From: Methylopila sp. Yamaguchi
GTDB lineage: Bacteria > Pseudomonadota > Alphaproteobacteria > Rhizobiales > Methylopilaceae
DNA length: 64,000 bases
Assembly: GCF_002897035.1 (NCBI RefSeq)
Contig: NZ_BAUX01000001.1
Location: 372,001-436,000 of the forward strand
Direction: 5' to 3'
Made by a program: the position numbers and the translations under genes. Shown here in pieces: positions 8,153 to 15,364 of this stretch. Position 1 is the stretch's first letter, and the number at the start of each line of letters is the position of its first letter. A model generated the notes under the pieces. It was given only the letters and a program-made list of their open reading frames with translations. It was not told where the DNA came from and ran no database searches.

Positions 8153-9565
8153 TCAGCCCGAGATTTCCTCGAGCGACTTTCCTCTGGTCTCGACGCCTAG
8201 CGTCAGCACCGCGACCGCGGCGACGACGAATGAGCCAGCCCCAAGCGCGAACACGCCGGCCGAACCAAGAGTTGGTAAGACCACCCCGATGACAGACGGT
8301 CCGATCAACGAACCGATCCGGCCGACCGCGGAGGCGCAGCCCGCGCCGGTCGCCCGCGCGCGCGTCGGATAGAGCTCCGGCGTGTAGGCGTAGAGCGTCG
8401 ACCACATGCCGAACAGGAAGAACTGCATGACGAGGCCGAACACGATCAGCATCGTGAACGATGGCGCGTTGCCATAGGCGAAGGCTGCGACCGCGGAGCC
8501 GATCAGCATCAGCGCGCACGTGCCCTTGCGGCCCCAGGCGTCGACCAGCCAGGCGGCGGTGATGAAGCCCGGAATGCCCGCGAGCGCGATCAGCACGACG
8601 TATTCGGTCGACTTGGTGTTGGTGAAACCCTGCGCCTGCAGCAGCGCGCCGAGCCAGGTGGTGAGGCCATAGAAGCCGAGCAGCGCGAAGAACCAGACCA
8701 GCCAGATCATCACGGTGCGGCTGGCGTACTCGCCGGCCCAGAGCTCCATGAAGGAGAAGCGGCGCTGGCCCCGCGCGAGGGCCGCGACGGGCTTCGGCTC
8801 CCCGAGGCTCGCTCCGGCCGGCAGCCGCTCCGCGACCTTCCGCTCGATGTGCGACATGACCTTCTCGGCTTCGTCCAGCCGGCCCCGGTCGGCGAGCCAG
8901 CGCGGGCTCTCCGGCACGAGGAAGCGCACGACGAACAGGAACAGCGCCGGGATCGCCTGACACAGGAACATCTCCCGCCAGGTGAAGTGCGTGAGGAACA
9001 GCCAGCTGAGCAGGCCGGCCGCGATGAAGCCGATCGGCCAGAACCCCTCGAGGATCGCGAGGTAGCGGCCGCGCTTCGCCGTCGGGACGAACTCCGACAC
9101 GATCGCCAGCGCGACGGGGAACTCCATGCCCATGCCGAAGCCGAGCAGCAGGCGGGCGTAGCCGAGGGTCGTGGGATCGGGCGCGAAGTAGCACCACAGG
9201 CTGCCCGCGCCCCAGAAGATCATCGAGATCTGGAACACGAGCTTGCGGCCGATACGGTCCGCCGCCATCCCGGAGATCGCCGCGCCGAGGAACATGCCGA
9301 GAAAGCTCATCGACGACAGGAATCCGGCCTGCGCGGTCGAGAGGTTGAACTCGGTCTTGATCGAACCGAGCAGGAAGGTCAGCGAGCCGAGGTCGATCGA
9401 GTCGAAGAACCAGGCGGTCGCGATGATCGCGAAGATCATCTTCTGGTAGCCCGTCATCGGCAGGCGATCGAGCCGCGCCGCGATCATCACGTCGCTCGCC
9501 GTCGTGGCCGACGACGCTCCGGCAGGCGCGGCGGCGCCTCCCGCTGGCAGCGAGATATCCGTCAT
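8153..9565 (-). CDS. MFS transporter (sugar porter/MHS-like)
   Basis: A 470-residue inner-membrane transporter with about 12 hydrophobic helices. Visible signatures are the loop 2-3 motif GMAADRIGRKLVF, PVALAIVSEFVPTAKRGR after helix 4, FLVPESPRWLADRGR before the central loop, and the C-terminal LGVETRGKSLEEISG typical of sugar-porter/SV2-like carriers of aromatic acids, nicotinate or sugars. It is divergent from the GntR regulator at 9766. A 13-bp sequence 86 bp upstream of its start is identical to one upstream of the hydroxylase gene at 13361, so transporter and hydroxylase operon are probably co-regulated. Substrate unknown. Confidence 0.92.
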   Translation of the reverse strand: MTDISLPAGGAAAPAGASSATTASDVMIAARLDRLPMTGYQKMIFAIIATAWFFDSIDLGSLTFLLGSIKTEFNLSTAQAGFLSSMSFLGMFLGAAISGMAADRIGRKLVFQISMIFWGAGSLWCYFAPDPTTLGYARLLLGFGMGMEFPVALAIVSEFVPTAKRGRYLAILEGFWPIGFIAAGLLSWLFLTHFTWREMFLCQAIPALFLFVVRFLVPESPRWLADRGRLDEAEKVMSHIERKVAERLPAGASLGEPKPVAALARGQRRFSFMELWAGEYASRTVMIWLVWFFALLGFYGLTTWLGALLQAQGFTNTKSTEYVVLIALAGIPGFITAAWLVDAWGRKGTCALMLIGSAVAAFAYGNAPSFTMLIVFGLVMQFFLFGMWSTLYAYTPELYPTRARATGAGCASAVGRIGSLIGPSVIGVVLPTLGSAGVFALGAGSFVVAAVAVLTLGVETRGKSLEEISG

Positions 9566-9650: not shown

Positions 9651-9665
9651 GCAACTGATATATTA
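9651..9665. promoter_or_regulatory. Putative GntR operator, copy 1
   Basis: GCAACTGATATATTA lies in the divergent gap between the MFS transporter (start 9565) and the GntR gene (start 9766). The first 13 bases are identical to 13402-13414 upstream of the hydroxylase operon. The core TGATATATTA is a near-palindrome, the expected shape for a GntR/FCD dimer site. The call is inference from identity, position and symmetry. Confidence 0.6.
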
Positions 9666-9765
9666 GTAGCCTTCCAATCCTTCGCCCTTCTCTTTTTGGG
9701 TGGTCGGCGGCGTGCTAAGTCACTCTTCGTCGACGACCAAGCCGCCCCAAGGAAACCGGGAAACC

Positions 9766-10509
9766 ATGAGCGTGACGAAGGTGCGATCGCGACCGCCGCG
9801 CGCTGCGGCGGTCGAGCGTCCGGCGGTCGAGCGTCCCGCCGCAGAGCGCCCCGCGCCGGCGCAGCCCGCGGACGGCGGGACGTTGACTGACCGGGCCTAT
9901 GTGATCCTGGAAGAGCTCATCACCACCCTGCAGCTTCCGCCCGGAGTCTTCCTGAGCGAGATGGCGCTCGCGCAGAGGCTCGGCTTCGGCCGGACCCCGA
10001 TCCGCGAGGCGCTTCAGAGGCTCGCGCGCGACGGTCTGGTGATCGTCGCCCCCCGCCGCGGCATTCTGGTCTCGGAGGTGAACCTGAAATCGCAGTTGCG
10101 CCTGCTCGAGACCCGGCGGGTCCTCGAATCCCTTCTGGCGCGGCTGTCGGCCGAACGGTCGGACGCCGGTGAGCGGGCGCGTTTCGCGGCGATCGCGGAG
10201 GGCATGCGGACCGCGGCGGCGGCCGCCGACGACCTCGCCTTCATGCGGCTCGACCGCGAGTTCAACGACCTGGTCTCGGCCACGGCACGAAACGAGTTTG
10301 CGGCGCGCGCGATGTCCAACATGACCGCCCTGTCGCGGCGCTTCTGGTACCAGCACTACAAGGAGGTCGGCGACCTCGGGCTCTCGGCGCGGCTCCATGC
10401 CGAGGTCGCCGAGGCGATCGCGGCGCGCGACGGCGCGGCCGCGGCCGCGCGATCCGACCGGTTGATGGACTACATCGAGAGCTTCGCCAGAAAGACGCTC
10501 GACGTCTGA
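9766..10509 (+). CDS. GntR-family regulator with FCD domain
   Basis: A 247-residue FadR-subfamily regulator. An unstructured Pro/Ala/Glu/Arg-rich N-terminus (ERPAVERPAAERPAPAQPA) precedes a winged helix (residues about 40-105, with GRTPIREALQRLARDGLV) and an all-helical FCD effector domain. The FCD FH pair that supplies a metal-binding histidine in many members reads FN here (DREFNDLV), so metal binding may differ. ATG 9766 is chosen, with AAGGAA upstream; an in-frame ATG at 9700 has no such site. It is convergent with the PanB-like gene and divergent from the MFS transporter, and probably controls both the transporter and the 13361-10552 operon. Confidence 0.92.
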   Translation: MSVTKVRSRPPRAAAVERPAVERPAAERPAPAQPADGGTLTDRAYVILEELITTLQLPPGVFLSEMALAQRLGFGRTPIREALQRLARDGLVIVAPRRGILVSEVNLKSQLRLLETRRVLESLLARLSAERSDAGERARFAAIAEGMRTAAAAADDLAFMRLDREFNDLVSATARNEFAARAMSNMTALSRRFWYQHYKEVGDLGLSARLHAEVAEAIAARDGAAAAARSDRLMDYIESFARKTLDV

Positions 10510-10518
10510 CGTCGTCTG

Positions 10519-10538
10519 GTCCGGAGCAGATTCCGGAC
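10519..10538. terminator. Possible terminator between convergent genes
   Basis: GTCCGGA-GCAGAT-TCCGGAC forms a 7-bp perfect stem in the 42-bp gap between the GntR and PanB-like stop codons. No U-run follows on either strand, so it may only be a structured spacer. Confidence 0.35.
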
Positions 10539-10551
10539 AGAAGGACCGCCG

Positions 10552-11433
10552 TCAGACCTGCCGGCGGTTCTCGACCATGGCGGCGAACTTCTCGTATTCC
10601 GCCTCGTTGACGCCGTAGGAATGGTCGTCGTCGGGAAACGCGCCGACCTTGACCTCGCGCACATACTCCTTGATCCCCGCCACCGCGACCTCGGTGAGCC
10701 GCGCGTAGCGCTTGGTGAACTTGGGCTTGAAGTCGGTGAAGACCCCGAGCAGGTCGTGGCAGAGCAGGATCTGGCCGTCCGTGCCGACGCCGGCTCCGAT
10801 GCCGATCGTGGGGATTGTCAGCTGCTCGGAAATGAGCTTGGCGATCCGCGCCGGCACCGCCTCGAACTCCAGCATGAAGCAGCCGGCGTCTTCGATCGCG
10901 AGCGCGTCCTCGAGGATCTTGAAGGCCGCGTCCGCGGTCTTCCCCTGGATCTTGAAGCCCCCGAAGGTCGCGACCGTGTGCGGCGTCAGGCCGATGTGGG
11001 ATGCCGTCGGGATTCCCGCGTCCACCAGCGCCTTCAGGATCTGCGCCCGGCTCTTGCCGCCCTGCGGCTTCACGGCGTCGGTGAGCGCCTCCTGCATGAA
11101 GCGCGTGGCGTTTACGAGCGCCCGGTCGATCGTGTTGTAGCTCTGGTAGGGCATGCAGCCGAGCGTGAACGTGTCCGGCGCGCCGCGGCGGATCGCCTGC
11201 GCGTGCATCACCATCATGTCCATGGTCGCAGGGATTGTGTTGGGGTGGCCGTGCGCGATCATCGCGAGGCTGTCGCCCACCACCGCGACGTCGACGCCCG
11301 CCATCTCCGCCCATTTGGCGGAGGTGTAGTCCGGCACCGACATGTAGACCATCTTCTCGCCGGTGGCTTTGGAGGCGCGGATCTGCGTCACGGTGCGCTT
11401 CTCGCGCTTTTCTGACGACGGAGCTGCGGTCAT
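10552..11433 (-). CDS. PanB-like protein (ketopantoate hydroxymethyltransferase family) with altered metal site
   Basis: A 293-residue TIM-barrel protein that aligns along its length with PanB, which adds a hydroxymethyl group from methylene-tetrahydrofolate to 2-oxoisovalerate. Conserved are VVGDSL (Asp54, aligned to E. coli Asp45), RRGAP, SHIGLTPHTV, FGGFKIQGK, the catalytic Glu189 (aligned to Glu181) and GIGAGVGTDGQILLCHD. Two of the three Mg ligands of E. coli PanB are replaced: Asp84 by Cys93 (LGCMPY against LADLPF) and Glu114 by Gln124 (VKPQGG against VKIEGG). The reaction may therefore differ. It is last in a minus-strand run starting with the hydroxylase at 13361, after a 132-bp gap. 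Automated annotation would call it panB, but I withhold the symbol. Confidence 0.85.
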   Translation of the reverse strand: MTAAPSSEKREKRTVTQIRASKATGEKMVYMSVPDYTSAKWAEMAGVDVAVVGDSLAMIAHGHPNTIPATMDMMVMHAQAIRRGAPDTFTLGCMPYQSYNTIDRALVNATRFMQEALTDAVKPQGGKSRAQILKALVDAGIPTASHIGLTPHTVATFGGFKIQGKTADAAFKILEDALAIEDAGCFMLEFEAVPARIAKLISEQLTIPTIGIGAGVGTDGQILLCHDLLGVFTDFKPKFTKRYARLTEVAVAGIKEYVREVKVGAFPDDDHSYGVNEAEYEKFAAMVENRRQV

Positions 11434-11565
11434 ATCGAGTGCTTTCAGGAGGGGTCGCGCGTGAGGCGACGGGAGGCCGGGGCGCTTTGCGCCTGCGGCG
11501 TTCGCCGTCGGGGAACGACCCTCGGGGTGGATCCGCGGGGCCGCGCGATGGACACGTCGCGGCGG

Positions 11566-11871
11566 TTAGGCCGCAGCGGCGTCGTAGGTCGAGACGACGT
11601 CGTCGATGTCGGCCGTCGACATCTCCCACTCGTTCTGGAAGTTCGCCACCACGTCCCGCATGAAGCGCTCAGTCAGCGCCTCGGCCCGCGCCCCGTCGCC
11701 GAAATGATCGGTCAGGATCGCAAACGCCAGTTGCCGCGGGGCGGGACCCTCGTAGCTCCATTCGAAGTCGGCGCCGGCGTAGTCCTTGAGGTCGTCGCGC
11801 GGCTGGAGCGGTTCGCCGTTCACGGTCACCAGAATGCCGTCGATGGTGCGGTCGCCGATATAGGTCTTCAT
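11566..11871 (-). CDS. DUF6166 family protein
   Basis: A 101-residue soluble protein resembling the DUF6166 family: an N-terminal YIGDRTIDGILVTVNGEPL beta segment, then FEWSYEGPAPRQLAFAILTD (the family's gly-pro-x-QLA-A-x-L core) and a helical C-terminus with F-x-N-E-W. Function is unknown. Its start overlaps the stop of the upstream small membrane gene by 4 bp, so the two are translationally coupled. It is the fourth gene of the run that starts with the hydroxylase. Confidence 0.75.
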   Translation of the reverse strand: MKTYIGDRTIDGILVTVNGEPLQPRDDLKDYAGADFEWSYEGPAPRQLAFAILTDHFGDGARAEALTERFMRDVVANFQNEWEMSTADIDDVVSTYDAAAA

Positions 11872-12086
11872 CGCGCGCGCCCCTTAGCGTCCCGGCCCGC
11901 CGGCGTGTTGTCGGCCTTGGACCGCATGACCTCAGGGAAGATCCACAGGCTGACGCCCGTGAACGGCCCGAGGAACAGCAAGGCCATCTGGGGCCCGGTC
12001 TTGCCGAGATGCCCCATGTAGAACCAGCCCGCGGCCGCGGCGAGCAGCACCACGATCGTGAGCCCCATCTTCACCCTAAACGGCAT
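11868..12086 (-). CDS. Small membrane protein
   Basis: A 72-residue protein with two hydrophobic segments (about residues 8-25, LTIVVLLAAAAGWFYMG, and 33-50, MALLFLGPFTGVSLWIF) and a charged, Arg/Lys-rich C-terminus. No family recognised. It lies 27 bp after the four-helix membrane gene and overlaps the DUF6166 gene by 4 bp, which supports it as a real operon member. Confidence 0.7.
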   Translation of the reverse strand: MPFRVKMGLTIVVLLAAAAGWFYMGHLGKTGPQMALLFLGPFTGVSLWIFPEVMRSKADNTPAGRDAKGRAR

Positions 12087-12113
12087 CGCCCCCTCCCTTG
12101 TTGTCGTAGGTTG

Positions 12114-12503
12114 TCAGGCGGCGTAGACGCCGCCGACGACGTGCAGGAGCGCGATCGCGAGAACCGTGCCGGCGAGGAGGATCGCAAGACCCGCCGCGCC
12201 GTCGCGCCAGCGCTCCGGCCACATGTTGAAGATCCCGGGCGCGAACAGGAACGCGAAGCCCGCCACGATGACGACGCTGGTCCAGCGAAGCTCAGCCGCC
12301 GCGTAGATCCCGGTCCCGACGGCGAGCGCAAGAAACGCCAGAGCGTTGACGATCGCAAGCGGAACGCCGGCCGGATGGACCTTAAGGTCGTCGCGGGTTG
12401 ACAGCGGAAAGGCCCCGGCCAGCACGTAGAAGCCCAGTCCCGCGACGCTTGCGAACAGCGCAAACCATGCGAGCGCCCCCAGGTTCGGTTCGATCATGTC
12501 CAT
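12114..12503 (-). CDS. Four-helix membrane protein of unknown function
   Basis: A 129-residue integral membrane protein with four clear hydrophobic segments: LAWFALFASVAGLGFYVLAG, LAIVNALAFLALAVGTGI, SVVIVAGFAFLFAPGIF and AGLAILLAGTVLAIALLHVV. No catalytic motif is visible and I do not recognise the family. It sits 54 bp after the hydroxylase gene. Small multi-helix partners can act as membrane anchors or electron-transfer partners for di-iron oxygenases, but nothing here shows such a role. Confidence 0.75.
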   Translation of the reverse strand: MDMIEPNLGALAWFALFASVAGLGFYVLAGAFPLSTRDDLKVHPAGVPLAIVNALAFLALAVGTGIYAAAELRWTSVVIVAGFAFLFAPGIFNMWPERWRDGAAGLAILLAGTVLAIALLHVVGGVYAA

Positions 12504-12557
12504 TGAGTTCCGGCTCCTCGGTGCGGAGGCCCGACGACGTCGTCGCGCCGATCGACG

Positions 12558-13361
12558 TCATTCGGCGGGCTGCGCGTAACCCTTCTGAGCCGCGGCTCCG
12601 GGAGCCCGCGGCGTGCGCGCGGTCTTCCGCATGTCCGTCTTCACATGCTCGGTCGAGTAGCCGTTGAACAGCGTCCCGATCAGGCCACGGTTGAGGTCGG
12701 AGGTGCCGAACAGCCAGTCCATGATCGGGAACGTCAGGTTCATGTTGCGCTCCATCATGATCGACTGGTCGTGATGGGCGGTGTGGTGCCGCCGGTTGGT
12801 GTTGATGAACGGCATGTTTCTGACGAACCAGTTGTCGTCGACGTGGCAGCAGAAGTGCATGAACTCGTAGATCATGTAGATCGACGTCGTTGTGGTGATG
12901 AACAGCCAGCCGACGTTGGCCGTGAACAGCCAGCCGAGCACGATCGCGCCGGGAATCGACATCAGCGTGAAGGCCGCGAGCGCGTAGGGCGGAAAGAACG
13001 TCACCCGGTAGTCGCGGTGGTCGGCGAACCGCATCTCGTGCTCGGTGAAGAACTGGTGATGCTGCAGCGTGTGGCGGTTGTAGACGGCGCGCGCGACCGG
13101 GTTCTTGGACGGCCGGTGCATGACGTAGCGGTGGATCCACCACTCGACAAAATTGCAGAACAGGAAGGTGATCGGAACGGTCGCAAGCTCCGCCCAGGAC
13201 GGAGCGTCGAGGTTCGACAGGTAGATGTAGAGCGCCGTGAAGCCGATCACGTAGATGATCGCGATGTGCAGCAGGCCATTGTACCAGCCCGCCACGCGCT
13301 GCCGGTAATTCGCCCGGTAAGCGCGCTGCCGTTCGGACATGGTTGTCTGGGTGAGTTCCAT
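12558..13361 (-). CDS. Sterol desaturase/fatty acid hydroxylase family protein
   Basis: A 267-residue integral membrane di-iron oxygenase. The histidine boxes are H77-x4-H82 (HRYVMH), H97-x3-H101-H102 (HTLQHH), H169 in EFMHFCCH, and H192-H193-x2-H196-H197 (HHTAHH), in the usual order between hydrophobic helices. The family hydroxylates or desaturates lipids, sterols or carotenoids using O2 and an electron donor. GGAGGG at 13371-13376 is a good ribosome-binding site. It heads the run down to the PanB-like gene, and the putative GntR operator lies 41 bp upstream. The substrate is unknown; no dedicated reductase is adjacent. Confidence 0.92.
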   Translation of the reverse strand: MELTQTTMSERQRAYRANYRQRVAGWYNGLLHIAIIYVIGFTALYIYLSNLDAPSWAELATVPITFLFCNFVEWWIHRYVMHRPSKNPVARAVYNRHTLQHHQFFTEHEMRFADHRDYRVTFFPPYALAAFTLMSIPGAIVLGWLFTANVGWLFITTTTSIYMIYEFMHFCCHVDDNWFVRNMPFINTNRRHHTAHHDQSIMMERNMNLTFPIMDWLFGTSDLNRGLIGTLFNGYSTEHVKTDMRKTARTPRAPGAAAQKGYAQPAE

Positions 13362-13401
13362 GTTTCCCTCCTGCTTGGACGCCGGTCACCGGCCTTGCTG
13401 C

Positions 13402-13416
13402 GCAACTGATATATCA
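13402..13416. promoter_or_regulatory. Putative GntR operator, copy 2
   Basis: GCAACTGATATATCA contains the perfect palindrome TGATATATCA (13407-13416) and shares its first 13 bases with 9651-9663. It lies 41 bp upstream of the hydroxylase start. The orientation relative to the minus-strand target is the same as for copy 1 and the MFS gene. Confidence 0.6.
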
Positions 13417-13524
13417 TTGGCGCATCACGAAAGCTAGGAGGATTAAAAGTGAGGAGCTGACCACCTATTTTTGGGAAGAGCGGCACGTTCGCGTGGCGAC
13501 AGGCTCGCGCCGCGCCCGGCGCCA

Positions 13525-13880
13525 ATCGAGGGAGCGAGGCAAAACTACCGCGGTAGTGACCCTAGGTTCGAAGTGCTCCTTGTTCATCCTGGTGGACCGC
13601 TGTGGCGAGCGAAAGATTCTCATGCGTGGTCGATCCGAAAGTTGAAATTCAAAGCGGAGAGACCGCCGAGGAGGCCGCCAGACGGGATTTTACAGAAGAG
13701 CTTGGAGTCCCACTCGCCGGCGCGCTCGCGACGCTCGGAACTGTCAAACCTCTAGCAGACAAGATCATTTATGGCTTCTCGTGGTGCGACGACGATGCCA
13801 TTAGCAGCCTTCGTTCGGCAATGGGACGCGCCTTGCAAGCGGCGGCAAGCCCGATCCCGTTATCCAAACCGTCGTGGCGA
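13525..13880 (+). pseudogene. Decayed Nudix hydrolase gene
   Basis: The frame YRGSDPRFEVLLVHPGGPLW is the typical beta-1/2 region of a Nudix protein. After AWSI one C is missing (ATCCG where ATCCCG is expected), and the Nudix box continues in another frame as EIQSGETAEEAARRDFTEEL. The first glycine of the GX5EX7REUXEEXGU box is valine. A further frame change follows near 13800. At least two frameshifts plus a box mutation mean it is not functional. Confidence 0.75.
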
Positions 13881-14003
13881 CCAGCCGTTTTCACTGCAGC
13901 GTACGCGCCCTCGACTTACTGCGTGGGAGGTCATCTCTAGCTGACCATTTCCAAGCGCATCGCGCAGCAGCGCTTCAGATTTCGGTTTCGCCGTTAACTG
14001 ACG

Positions 14004-15181
14004 TTAATGCGGCGTTCGCAGCCGAAGCAAAGCTTGTCGCGTCGCCTCATGTTGGGGAGCCGCAGCGTCTTGCGCGCATCGGAATTTGAGCCTGTCAATC
14101 CAAGCCATCTCCTCGGCTGAGGGGATCGTAGATCCATATCGCCGCTTCAATTCCTTGGATGTGCTTCGACTCCGATTCCCTGTCTTGCTCTCGTCCTCGC
14201 CCATATGACCCATGAACTTTTCTTTCAGAACTTCCGGGACGCCTGCAGCGTCACAGGCCGCGCTGAATGTGTGCCGCGTCGGATGAACGACATGCCTCGG
14301 ATCCGTCGCCACCATGTCAATCTGGCGATTAAGTCTCTTGGACGTTCACCGGAAGGCGGTCGAGGATATCTCGATACTGAAACACGTCGTATTTCCTGTA
14401 ATATCCAATCGGCTTGTCTCCAACGACAGCGGTTAAGACATCGATCCGTCCTGGACAGTCGGCCAGATGCTTGGCGCTCTCGCCCAACTCTTCCTGTTTC
14501 TTAGACGAAAAAGCGGCTACTCGCGTAGATAGCGCGATCCCGGCCGGGCCAGCGATTGCGACACCGCCGCTGCGACTGCCGAATGCACCATGGCCTCCAG
14601 CGTCCCAAGCCCAGGGAGGCGATCAGGGGCGTCGCCGCAATAGCGCCTTCGGGAAGAAGCCGGCGCGGAACACCGACGCCCTGCAGTTCTGCTTGAACGA
14701 AAGCATCGGTGTCCGCCGAAATCAGATCAGCCAGATCGTCGTCCATGATCAGCTTCGGCGCGCCGTCGATGACGATCGGGCGCGACGTTCCACCTCCGGC
14801 GAGGCGCTCCATCGTTATCTGGCATTTCGCTCGATCGGCCCAACGGCGGCGGTCGCCATCGAAATCGTCCATGACATGGTCCAGGATGGCCGCGAGCGCA
14901 GAGCGAGCGTCCGGGCCAAGCCCGGCGCTCCTCAACGTCTCGAATGCCTCCTCGACCACCCGCACGAGCGTCGACGCCCTTCGCCGGGCGATCCGGAAGT
15001 CGCTTGTTTGAACCGAGCGCCGGATGTCCGGTCTGCCAAGGCGAGAAATGAGATCGGATGGGACCGATCTGCGGAACCAGAGCATCTGGCCTCGCCGGCA
15101 AATGTAGCTTGGCGAGATGCTTGGCATGGCACGAATCGCGTTGAACGATCGGCGTGCCGTTTCGGGAAACGAATTTTGCAT
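14004..15181 (-). pseudogene. Decayed tyrosine integrase beside tRNA-Ser
   Basis: The N-terminal part (from 15181) reads ICRRGQMLWFRRSVPSDLIS and DIRRSVQTSDFRIARRRAST, the start of DUF6538-type phage/island integrases. After a frame change the core continues as DVLTAVVGDKPIGYYRKYD and DILDRLPVNVQET up to a stop near 14330. The catalytic C-terminus follows in another frame: HPTRHTF, KEKFMGHMGE and RRYGS (14315-14004). The section carrying the first catalytic Arg is missing. It starts 94 bp from the 3' end of tRNA-Ser, the usual place for an island integrase. Confidence 0.85.
14316..14500. other. Frame-broken middle of the integrase remnant
   Basis: No continuous frame crosses this stretch on the minus strand; it holds the segment ADCPGRIDVLTAVVGDKPIG and a premature stop, and the deletion that removed the middle catalytic region lies at its lower end. 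Confidence 0.6.
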
Positions 15182-15261
15182 CGCTTGGCGGCATCCGTTC
15201 GTGTGACGGTGCGCTGTGACAATGCGAGCGAAAAATCAGGCCATCTGATCGAAAAATATCA

Positions 15262-15275
15262 ACGACTTAAGTCGT
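15262..15275. repeat. 14-bp perfect palindrome abutting tRNA-Ser 3' end
   Basis: ACGACTTAAGTCGT is perfectly self-complementary; its last base is the terminal A of the encoded CCA of tRNA-Ser. It could be the tRNA transcript terminator stem or the remains of an attachment-site arm. No second copy was seen in the window. Confidence 0.5.
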
Positions 15276-15364
15276 GGCGGAGGGAGCGGGATTCGAACCC
15301 GCGATACGGTTTCCCGTATACACACTTTCCAGGCGTGCGCCTTCAACCACTCGGCCACCCCTCC
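15275..15364 (-). tRNA. tRNA-Ser (GGA anticodon)
   Basis: A 90-nt class II tRNA read on the minus strand: acceptor GGAGGGG pairing with TCCCTCC, anticodon loop CTGGAAA giving anticodon GGA, a long variable arm around ATACGGGAAACCGTAT, T-arm GCGGGTTCGAATCCCGC, discriminator G and encoded CCA. The decayed integrase downstream indicates that this gene served as an integration site. Confidence 0.95.

Follow-up and report, generated by a model that had tools for sequence, protein, structure and literature searches.

In Methylopila sp. Yamaguchi, a stretch of 64,000 nucleotides (the window; contig NZ_BAUX01000001.1, positions 372,001 to 436,000) raises the question of why one TA-rich sequence of 13 base pairs (bp) stands unchanged at two places in GC-rich DNA, with the gene of a GntR/FCD regulator lying between the copies. 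The original prediction had taken the pair to be operators of a small regulon, in which the regulator would control a major facilitator superfamily (MFS) importer and a run of genes from a hydroxylase to a PanB-like protein, and also itself. Our analysis is built on the observed sites, their conservation, their co-occurrence with the regulator and the gene content of the locus. It makes it very probable that both sites serve as operators for the GntR/FCD product of 9766–10509, a claim that excludes the chemistry of the pathway.

The sequence GCAACTGATATAT is present on the plus strand at 9651–9663 and 13402–13414, without a third exact copy in the window or any other in the 4.42 Mb genome, and the identical pair is thus exact and unique. 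The distances that had been predicted are also correct, namely 86 bp to the start of the MFS gene (9565, minus strand) and 41 bp to that of the hydroxylase gene (13361, minus strand), and the regulator gene does lie between the two sites. A chance duplicate is the least probable explanation of such a pair. Repeats as such are common in the window, which holds 578 repeated 13-mers against about 286 in simulation, but GCAACTGATATAT is the only one of them with at least nine A/T positions, and no such repeat was found in 30 simulated windows. Under a first-order Markov model, only 3e-5 exact copies would be expected in a window of this kind. When up to three mismatches are allowed, the window contains seven matches (two of which are the same two sites read on the opposite strand), compared with a mean of 1.81 in shuffled sequences, and one shuffle in 100 reaches seven. 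Chance was rejected as an explanation because the motif is also conserved across species, as described below.

Both sites extend to imperfect palindromes of 20 bp that are symmetric at 16 of 20 positions. Predicted operator 1, GCAACTGATATATTAGTAGC, occupies 9651–9670 in the divergent gap between the MFS and gntR genes, and predicted operator 2, GCAACTGATATATCATTGGC, occupies 13402–13421 in front of the hydroxylase operon; neither is assigned a strand. Their 12-bp cores (9655–9666 and 13406–13417) are symmetric at 10 of 12 positions and have the form CTGATATATYAK. The palindromic core of the original prediction, TGATATATCA, is found in exact form at the second site only, the first reading TGATATATTA. 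The likely functional unit would be a 12-bp palindrome resembling CTGATATATCAG. Since AAGGAAA is present upstream of the ATG at 9766, this codon is probably the start of the regulator gene and is preferred over the GTG at 9700, which places the end of operator 1 about 96 bp before the start. The position of operator 1 in the divergent gap makes autoregulation of gntR plausible here.

If the sites are operators, they should be found before the orthologous genes of relatives, and the original prediction had named conservation in these promoters as the test on which it would fall. The genome contigs were searched with the GntR protein, which gave 113 relatives, and the best 80 loci were kept (loci, genomes and some gene families carry our own L, G and F numbers). 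The palindrome CTGATATATCAG was sought with at most two mismatches in a zone of 250 bp upstream and 30 bp inside each gene, and 179 palindromes built from permuted half-sites served as controls. A site precedes 59 of 72 hydroxylase genes (controls: mean 0.34, maximum 8), 25 of 37 MFS genes (mean 0.32, maximum 8; 2 of 39 genes were excluded by the start and upstream-length rules) and all 17 genes of the ATP-binding cassette (ABC) binding protein F9 (mean 0.15, maximum 4). Over the hydroxylase, MFS, F9, DUF6166, gntR and PanB-like genes, control means range from 0.02 to 0.34 and maxima from 1 to 8. Genes presumed to be internal to operons, which encode the 72- and 129-amino-acid (aa) proteins and the ABC components F7, F10, F11 and F12, have 0 or 1 sites. 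In a count made without controls, at least one cluster gene is preceded by a site, at a distance of up to 300 bp, in 69 of the 72 hydroxylase loci. The exceptions are L045, L079 and L092, and L079, which was dropped by a filter, does carry TTGATATATCAG at 8723, before its hydroxylase match at 8801. Among the eight hydroxylase loci fetched from other genomes of a draw on the phylum, sites with no or one mismatch are present in L154, L155 and L158 and sites with two mismatches in L156 and L159. The motif is therefore conserved in orthologous promoters, as is expected of the targets of a FadR/FCD regulator.

The TA-rich composition in GC-rich DNA and the positions 41 to 86 bp before the starts could also suggest AT-rich promoter elements of the -10 type, or some other structural feature. 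Such a reading is very improbable, although slightly less so than chance duplication, because a -10 box does not account for the two-fold symmetry of both sites, for the rarity of exact CTGAYATRTCAG (0 to 3 copies per genome across 38 genomes) or for approximate site-to-start distances that vary from 26 to 233 bp; it was rejected on these grounds. The other CTGAYATRTCAG sites from the 38 genomes, 13 stretches of which were read, lie mostly near unrelated genes and were taken as chance, and one, in Afipia (L190), is upstream of a glcD homologue.

Several observations weigh against the operator reading. Only 8 of 60 gntR genes have an upstream site (20 of 80 were excluded by the start and upstream-length rules), as do 3 of 20 PanB-like and 11 of 74 DUF6166 genes, and the zinc alcohol dehydrogenase gene F3 of relatives scores 4 of 49, which some control palindromes exceed, with counts of up to 7. 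At up to two mismatches, 13 of the 72 hydroxylase genes and 12 of the 37 MFS genes show no site, and three of the eight loci from the phylum draw (L157, L160 and L161) have none in the 10–15 kb fetched. The core derived from the 104 sites collected, among which are 98 distinct 24-mers, is TRAYATRTYA, and its flanks are weak; part of its sharpness is built in, since the sites were preselected at two mismatches or fewer. In genome G252 (L034), the one-mismatch matches lie outside the cluster promoters, and the promoter sites have two mismatches; in G170, one exact site falls within a called reading frame (L146). A simple scan found no promoter of the sigma-70 type. Furthermore, the counts are not independent, because the 80 loci were chosen by similarity of GntR, include many close relatives and in at least two cases come as a pair from a single genome. 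The support for conservation of the operators comes instead from the contrast with the controls and from the spread over genera.

A second GntR paralogue or some other regulator could instead bind the sites, with the adjacent gntR gene as a bystander. The genome offers many GntR-like candidates (47 at first look), and the operator does not carry the GT/AC that is usual in the FadR subfamily (PMC4494728). Against this stands the distribution in the genus: an orthologue of the regulator (E ≤ 1e-40) is present in 8 of 13 genomes and CTGATATATCAG with at most one mismatch in the same 8, while the remaining 5 have neither. The sites also remain with the gene cluster across many genera. A different regulator is thus quite improbable, and the adjacent GntR/FCD protein is preferred as the one that would bind them.

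The protein matches both the GntR helix-turn-helix (HTH) profile (PF00392, 60.1 bits, cut-off 27) and the FCD profile (PF07729, 70.5 bits, cut-off 24.3) above the curated cut-offs. Next to an invariant Glu87, the 81 sequences compared have Gln (37), Leu (23), His (9), Ala (7), Met (4) or Gly (1), and never Arg. This residue, Met88 of the window protein when counted from the GTG start, was aligned by eye with FadR letters and with Table 1 of PMC4494728 (Glu-34 = position 27), and we take it to be HTH position 28. According to that paper, Arg is the commonest residue at position 28 of the FadR subfamily and prefers G/C, and the common operator of the subfamily consists of TKGT/ACMA boxes (PMC4494728). 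The core in the window is CTGAYATRTCAG-like and departs from this consensus, written NyGTNxACNy or TKGT/ACMA in the same paper, in that GA/TC replaces GT/AC; the absence of Arg from position 88 suits such an operator. PMC4494728 also lists exceptions to the consensus within the subfamily, and the missing GT/AC therefore does not exclude membership. The regulator is an atypical member of the FadR subfamily and not a new kind. BioR differs in that it controls a biotin regulon. The BioR-type operator, TTATMKATAA, is cited as an atypical one of the FadR subfamily in PMC4494728, and the window operator is like it as an AT-rich palindrome without GT/AC and differs from it in sequence. Compared with local regulons of the FadR/FCD type (GlcC, LldR and DgoR are the names given in PMC4494728), the locus is alike in the HTH and FCD domains, the AT-rich palindromic operator, the divergent arrangement of regulator and target, and the apparent control of an importer and metabolic genes. 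It differs in the operator, CTGA-YATR-TCAG without the GT/AC of TKGT/ACMA, in the residue taken as HTH position 28 (Arg in 0 of 81), and in targets that form an uncharacterised pathway.

On the minus strand from 13361, the putative operon encodes a membrane protein of the fatty acid hydroxylase superfamily (12558–13361), two small hydrophobic proteins of 129 aa (12114–12503) and 72 aa (11868–12086), a DUF6166 protein of 101 aa (11566–11871) and a paralogue of PanB, the ketopantoate hydroxymethyltransferase (10552–11433). These are followed by the plus-strand GntR/FCD gene and the minus-strand MFS gene (8153–9565). The hydroxylase has a modest match to PF04116 (38.5 bits, cut-off 31), and H77, H82, H97, H101, H102, H169, H173, H192, H193, H196 and H197 are histidine in 73 of 73 sequences. 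The profile match and these histidine clusters place it in the superfamily, from which it stands apart by its modest score and by the absence of a meaningful sequence match in the PDB (best E 0.6). The 129-aa protein matched no Pfam or NCBIfam family, and the DUF6166 protein (PF19663) is the single match to its family in the whole genome. The best NCBIfam match of the MFS protein among the families listed is the aromatic acid/H+ symport (AAHS) family, under the curated cut-off (TIGR00895, 269.5 bits against 418.55). Upstream of the hydroxylase operon lies a short NUDIX-like reading frame (13602–13940; 23.1 bits, cut-off 21.1). At 14004–15364, in a stretch of lower G+C (0.62–0.63), recombinase-like fragments stand beside a tRNA-Ser(GGA) gene (15275–15364); they comprise a PF20172/DUF6538 match at 14501–15181 and a piece at 14004–14315 without a Pfam match, which by eye resembles an integrase end. 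This stretch is possibly the remnant of an integrated element adjoining the operon.

The hydroxylase-to-PanB-like run had been read as a unit, and it does recur as a cluster in relatives, the nearest named one by GntR being Methylopila capsulata (97% identity). The cluster of the hydroxylase, the two small proteins, DUF6166, the PanB paralogue and an importer is found repeatedly in Alphaproteobacteria and, in partial form, elsewhere. By bit-score thresholds, 72 of the 80 loci contain the hydroxylase and 74 contain DUF6166; the 72-aa and 129-aa proteins are present in 65 and 62 loci, respectively. Zinc alcohol dehydrogenase F3 occurs in 50 loci, a related MFS protein in 39 and the PanB-like protein in 20. 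Counts of absence are upper limits because some loci end at contig ends. The hydroxylase was found in 9 genomes (own included) among 297 drawn from the order at E ≤ 1e-20, and likewise in 9 (own included) among 398 drawn from the phylum at E ≤ 1e-40. The importer varies with the lineage and can be an AAHS-like MFS protein, a liv-type ABC system or a tripartite ATP-independent periplasmic (TRAP) system. The ABC binding protein F9 is nearest to urea-type models, under cut-off, and the other ABC genes were named by eye; the TRAP system adjoins DUF6166 in L094 and, by eye, in L097. Where an ABC importer takes the place of the MFS protein, the motif stands before its binding-protein gene, in line with control of the importer. 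The nearest structures are of the sorbitol/mannitol, ketoacid and lactate types for the L094 TRAP binding protein and of the branched-chain/amide type for two ABC binding proteins of relatives; these matches are too loose for a ligand to be named from them. As a group, the importer types would suit organic acids, which are the usual effectors of FadR-subfamily regulators (PMC4494728). The proposed small regulon of an MFS importer and the hydroxylase-to-PanB-like run is supported by the conserved motif and by its co-occurrence with the regulator.

E. coli PanB holds its metal through three acidic ligands, Asp45, Asp84 and Glu114. The paralogue in the window scores 279.2 bits against the equivalog model TIGR00222, above the cut-off of 207.55, so automatic annotation would name it PanB, and it retains the motifs GDS and HIGLTP and a late Glu. 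It differs from the canonical PanB encoded elsewhere in the same genome by Cys for Asp and Gln for Glu, and both changes are shared by 20 of 20 orthologues, including a truncated one. The altered positions are presumably those of the metal ligands, in which case the first Asp is kept, the second is replaced by Cys and the third acidic ligand by Gln. With thresholds of 200 bits for the PanB-like protein and 300 bits for F3, 20 of the 80 loci have the PanB-like gene only, 50 have F3 only, 10 have neither and none has both. The two are mutually exclusive, and they may therefore serve alternative versions of one step. The NCBIfam models nearest to F3 are NDMA-dependent alcohol dehydrogenase and mycothiol- or glutathione-dependent formaldehyde dehydrogenases, all under cut-off. 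In the distant versions L158 and L159, a hydroxylase (49–50% identity), an MFS gene and operator-like sites are accompanied by a nearby iron-containing alcohol dehydrogenase (family scan for the L158 protein), which might be a third option beside the PanB-like enzyme and the zinc dehydrogenase.

In some relatives, the operator also marks genes outside the cluster. Exact CTGATATATCAG is found about 65–80 bp upstream of a glcD-like (glycolate oxidase) gene in the genus genomes G193, G655, G656 and G657, although the glcD reading of G655 is broken. GlcD and GlcE are the best NCBIfam matches but under their cut-offs, GlcF in L149 is above its own, and three of the four loci (L148–L150) have a LutB/LldF-type gene on the other side. 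Upstream regions were usable for 43 of 48 loci with glcD homologues, the remaining 5 being partial matches, and one genome is counted twice. A site with no more than one mismatch is present in 7 of the 43; the 179 controls average 0.006 and never exceed 1. Three of the 7 are in the genus (G193, G656 and G657) and four in Afipia (G672, G696, G697 and G698). The glcD-linked loci are L147–L150, L190, L234, L235, L242 and L244, and the genome of the window is not among them. Neither the fifth Afipia genome (that of L045) nor most other genomes searched for glcD homologues has a site there. The eight genus genomes with the regulator divide into four with the glcD site (G655 included) and four without it, the window's own among the latter; the five genomes without the regulator have no glcD site within two mismatches. 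Being restricted to some lineages, the predicted operator before glcD-like genes is a lineage-specific extension. In addition, a gene for a TctC-type binding protein in G655 and G656 has CTGATATATCAT near its probable start (about 5001 in L151 and 1426 in L152); the called frame of L152 runs across it, and only the L151 protein was scanned. These linked sites suggest, short of proof, that glycolate or another 2-hydroxy acid is the end product of the pathway.

The following course of events can be proposed for the cluster, which perhaps takes up and oxidises a small organic acid. A dimer of the regulator most likely binds the CTGATATATYAK palindrome and, by the habit of its family, would repress the importer gene, perhaps gntR itself, and the five-gene operon from the hydroxylase to the PanB-like protein. 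A small carboxylic acid, imported or derived from the import, would release the regulator, and the membrane protein, presumably of the diiron type, would hydroxylate that acid. In this locus the PanB paralogue would then carry out a next step, for which other lineages would use an alcohol dehydrogenase.

A joint reading of these parts is unlikely in its full form. It supposes an oxidative route not described before, whose first enzyme, the membrane protein of the diiron type, would hydroxylate a methyl or methylene group beside a heteroatom or keto group of a small imported acid. The products would be a 2-hydroxy acid, for example glycolate, and a one-carbon unit. In the lineages that have the PanB paralogue (many of them methylotrophs by name), this protein, its metal site altered, would capture the one-carbon unit or cleave the product, and in the others the formaldehyde-dehydrogenase-like zinc alcohol dehydrogenase would take the corresponding part. 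The acid would be finished by glycolate oxidase, which two lineages have under the same operator. A methoxyacetate idea found no support among the literature titles listed. The open-access literature search, partly judged by title, returned nothing describing the cluster or the operator. The string TGATATATCA occurs in PMC13050008 within a polymerase chain reaction primer and has 0 occurrences in the further open-access papers checked for it.

The control element is of an ordinary kind, and the interest attaches to the uncharacterised pathway that it would control. A pair of 13-bp repeats has become a testable regulon that is present in many Alphaproteobacteria and in less complete form elsewhere, and it marks a set of genes without assigned function, namely the hydroxylase, DUF6166, two orphan small proteins and an altered PanB paralogue. 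The operator can be used as a search handle for further members of the pathway. It has already flagged the glcD-like gene and the TctC-type binding protein, and these point the search for the substrate at carboxylic acids.

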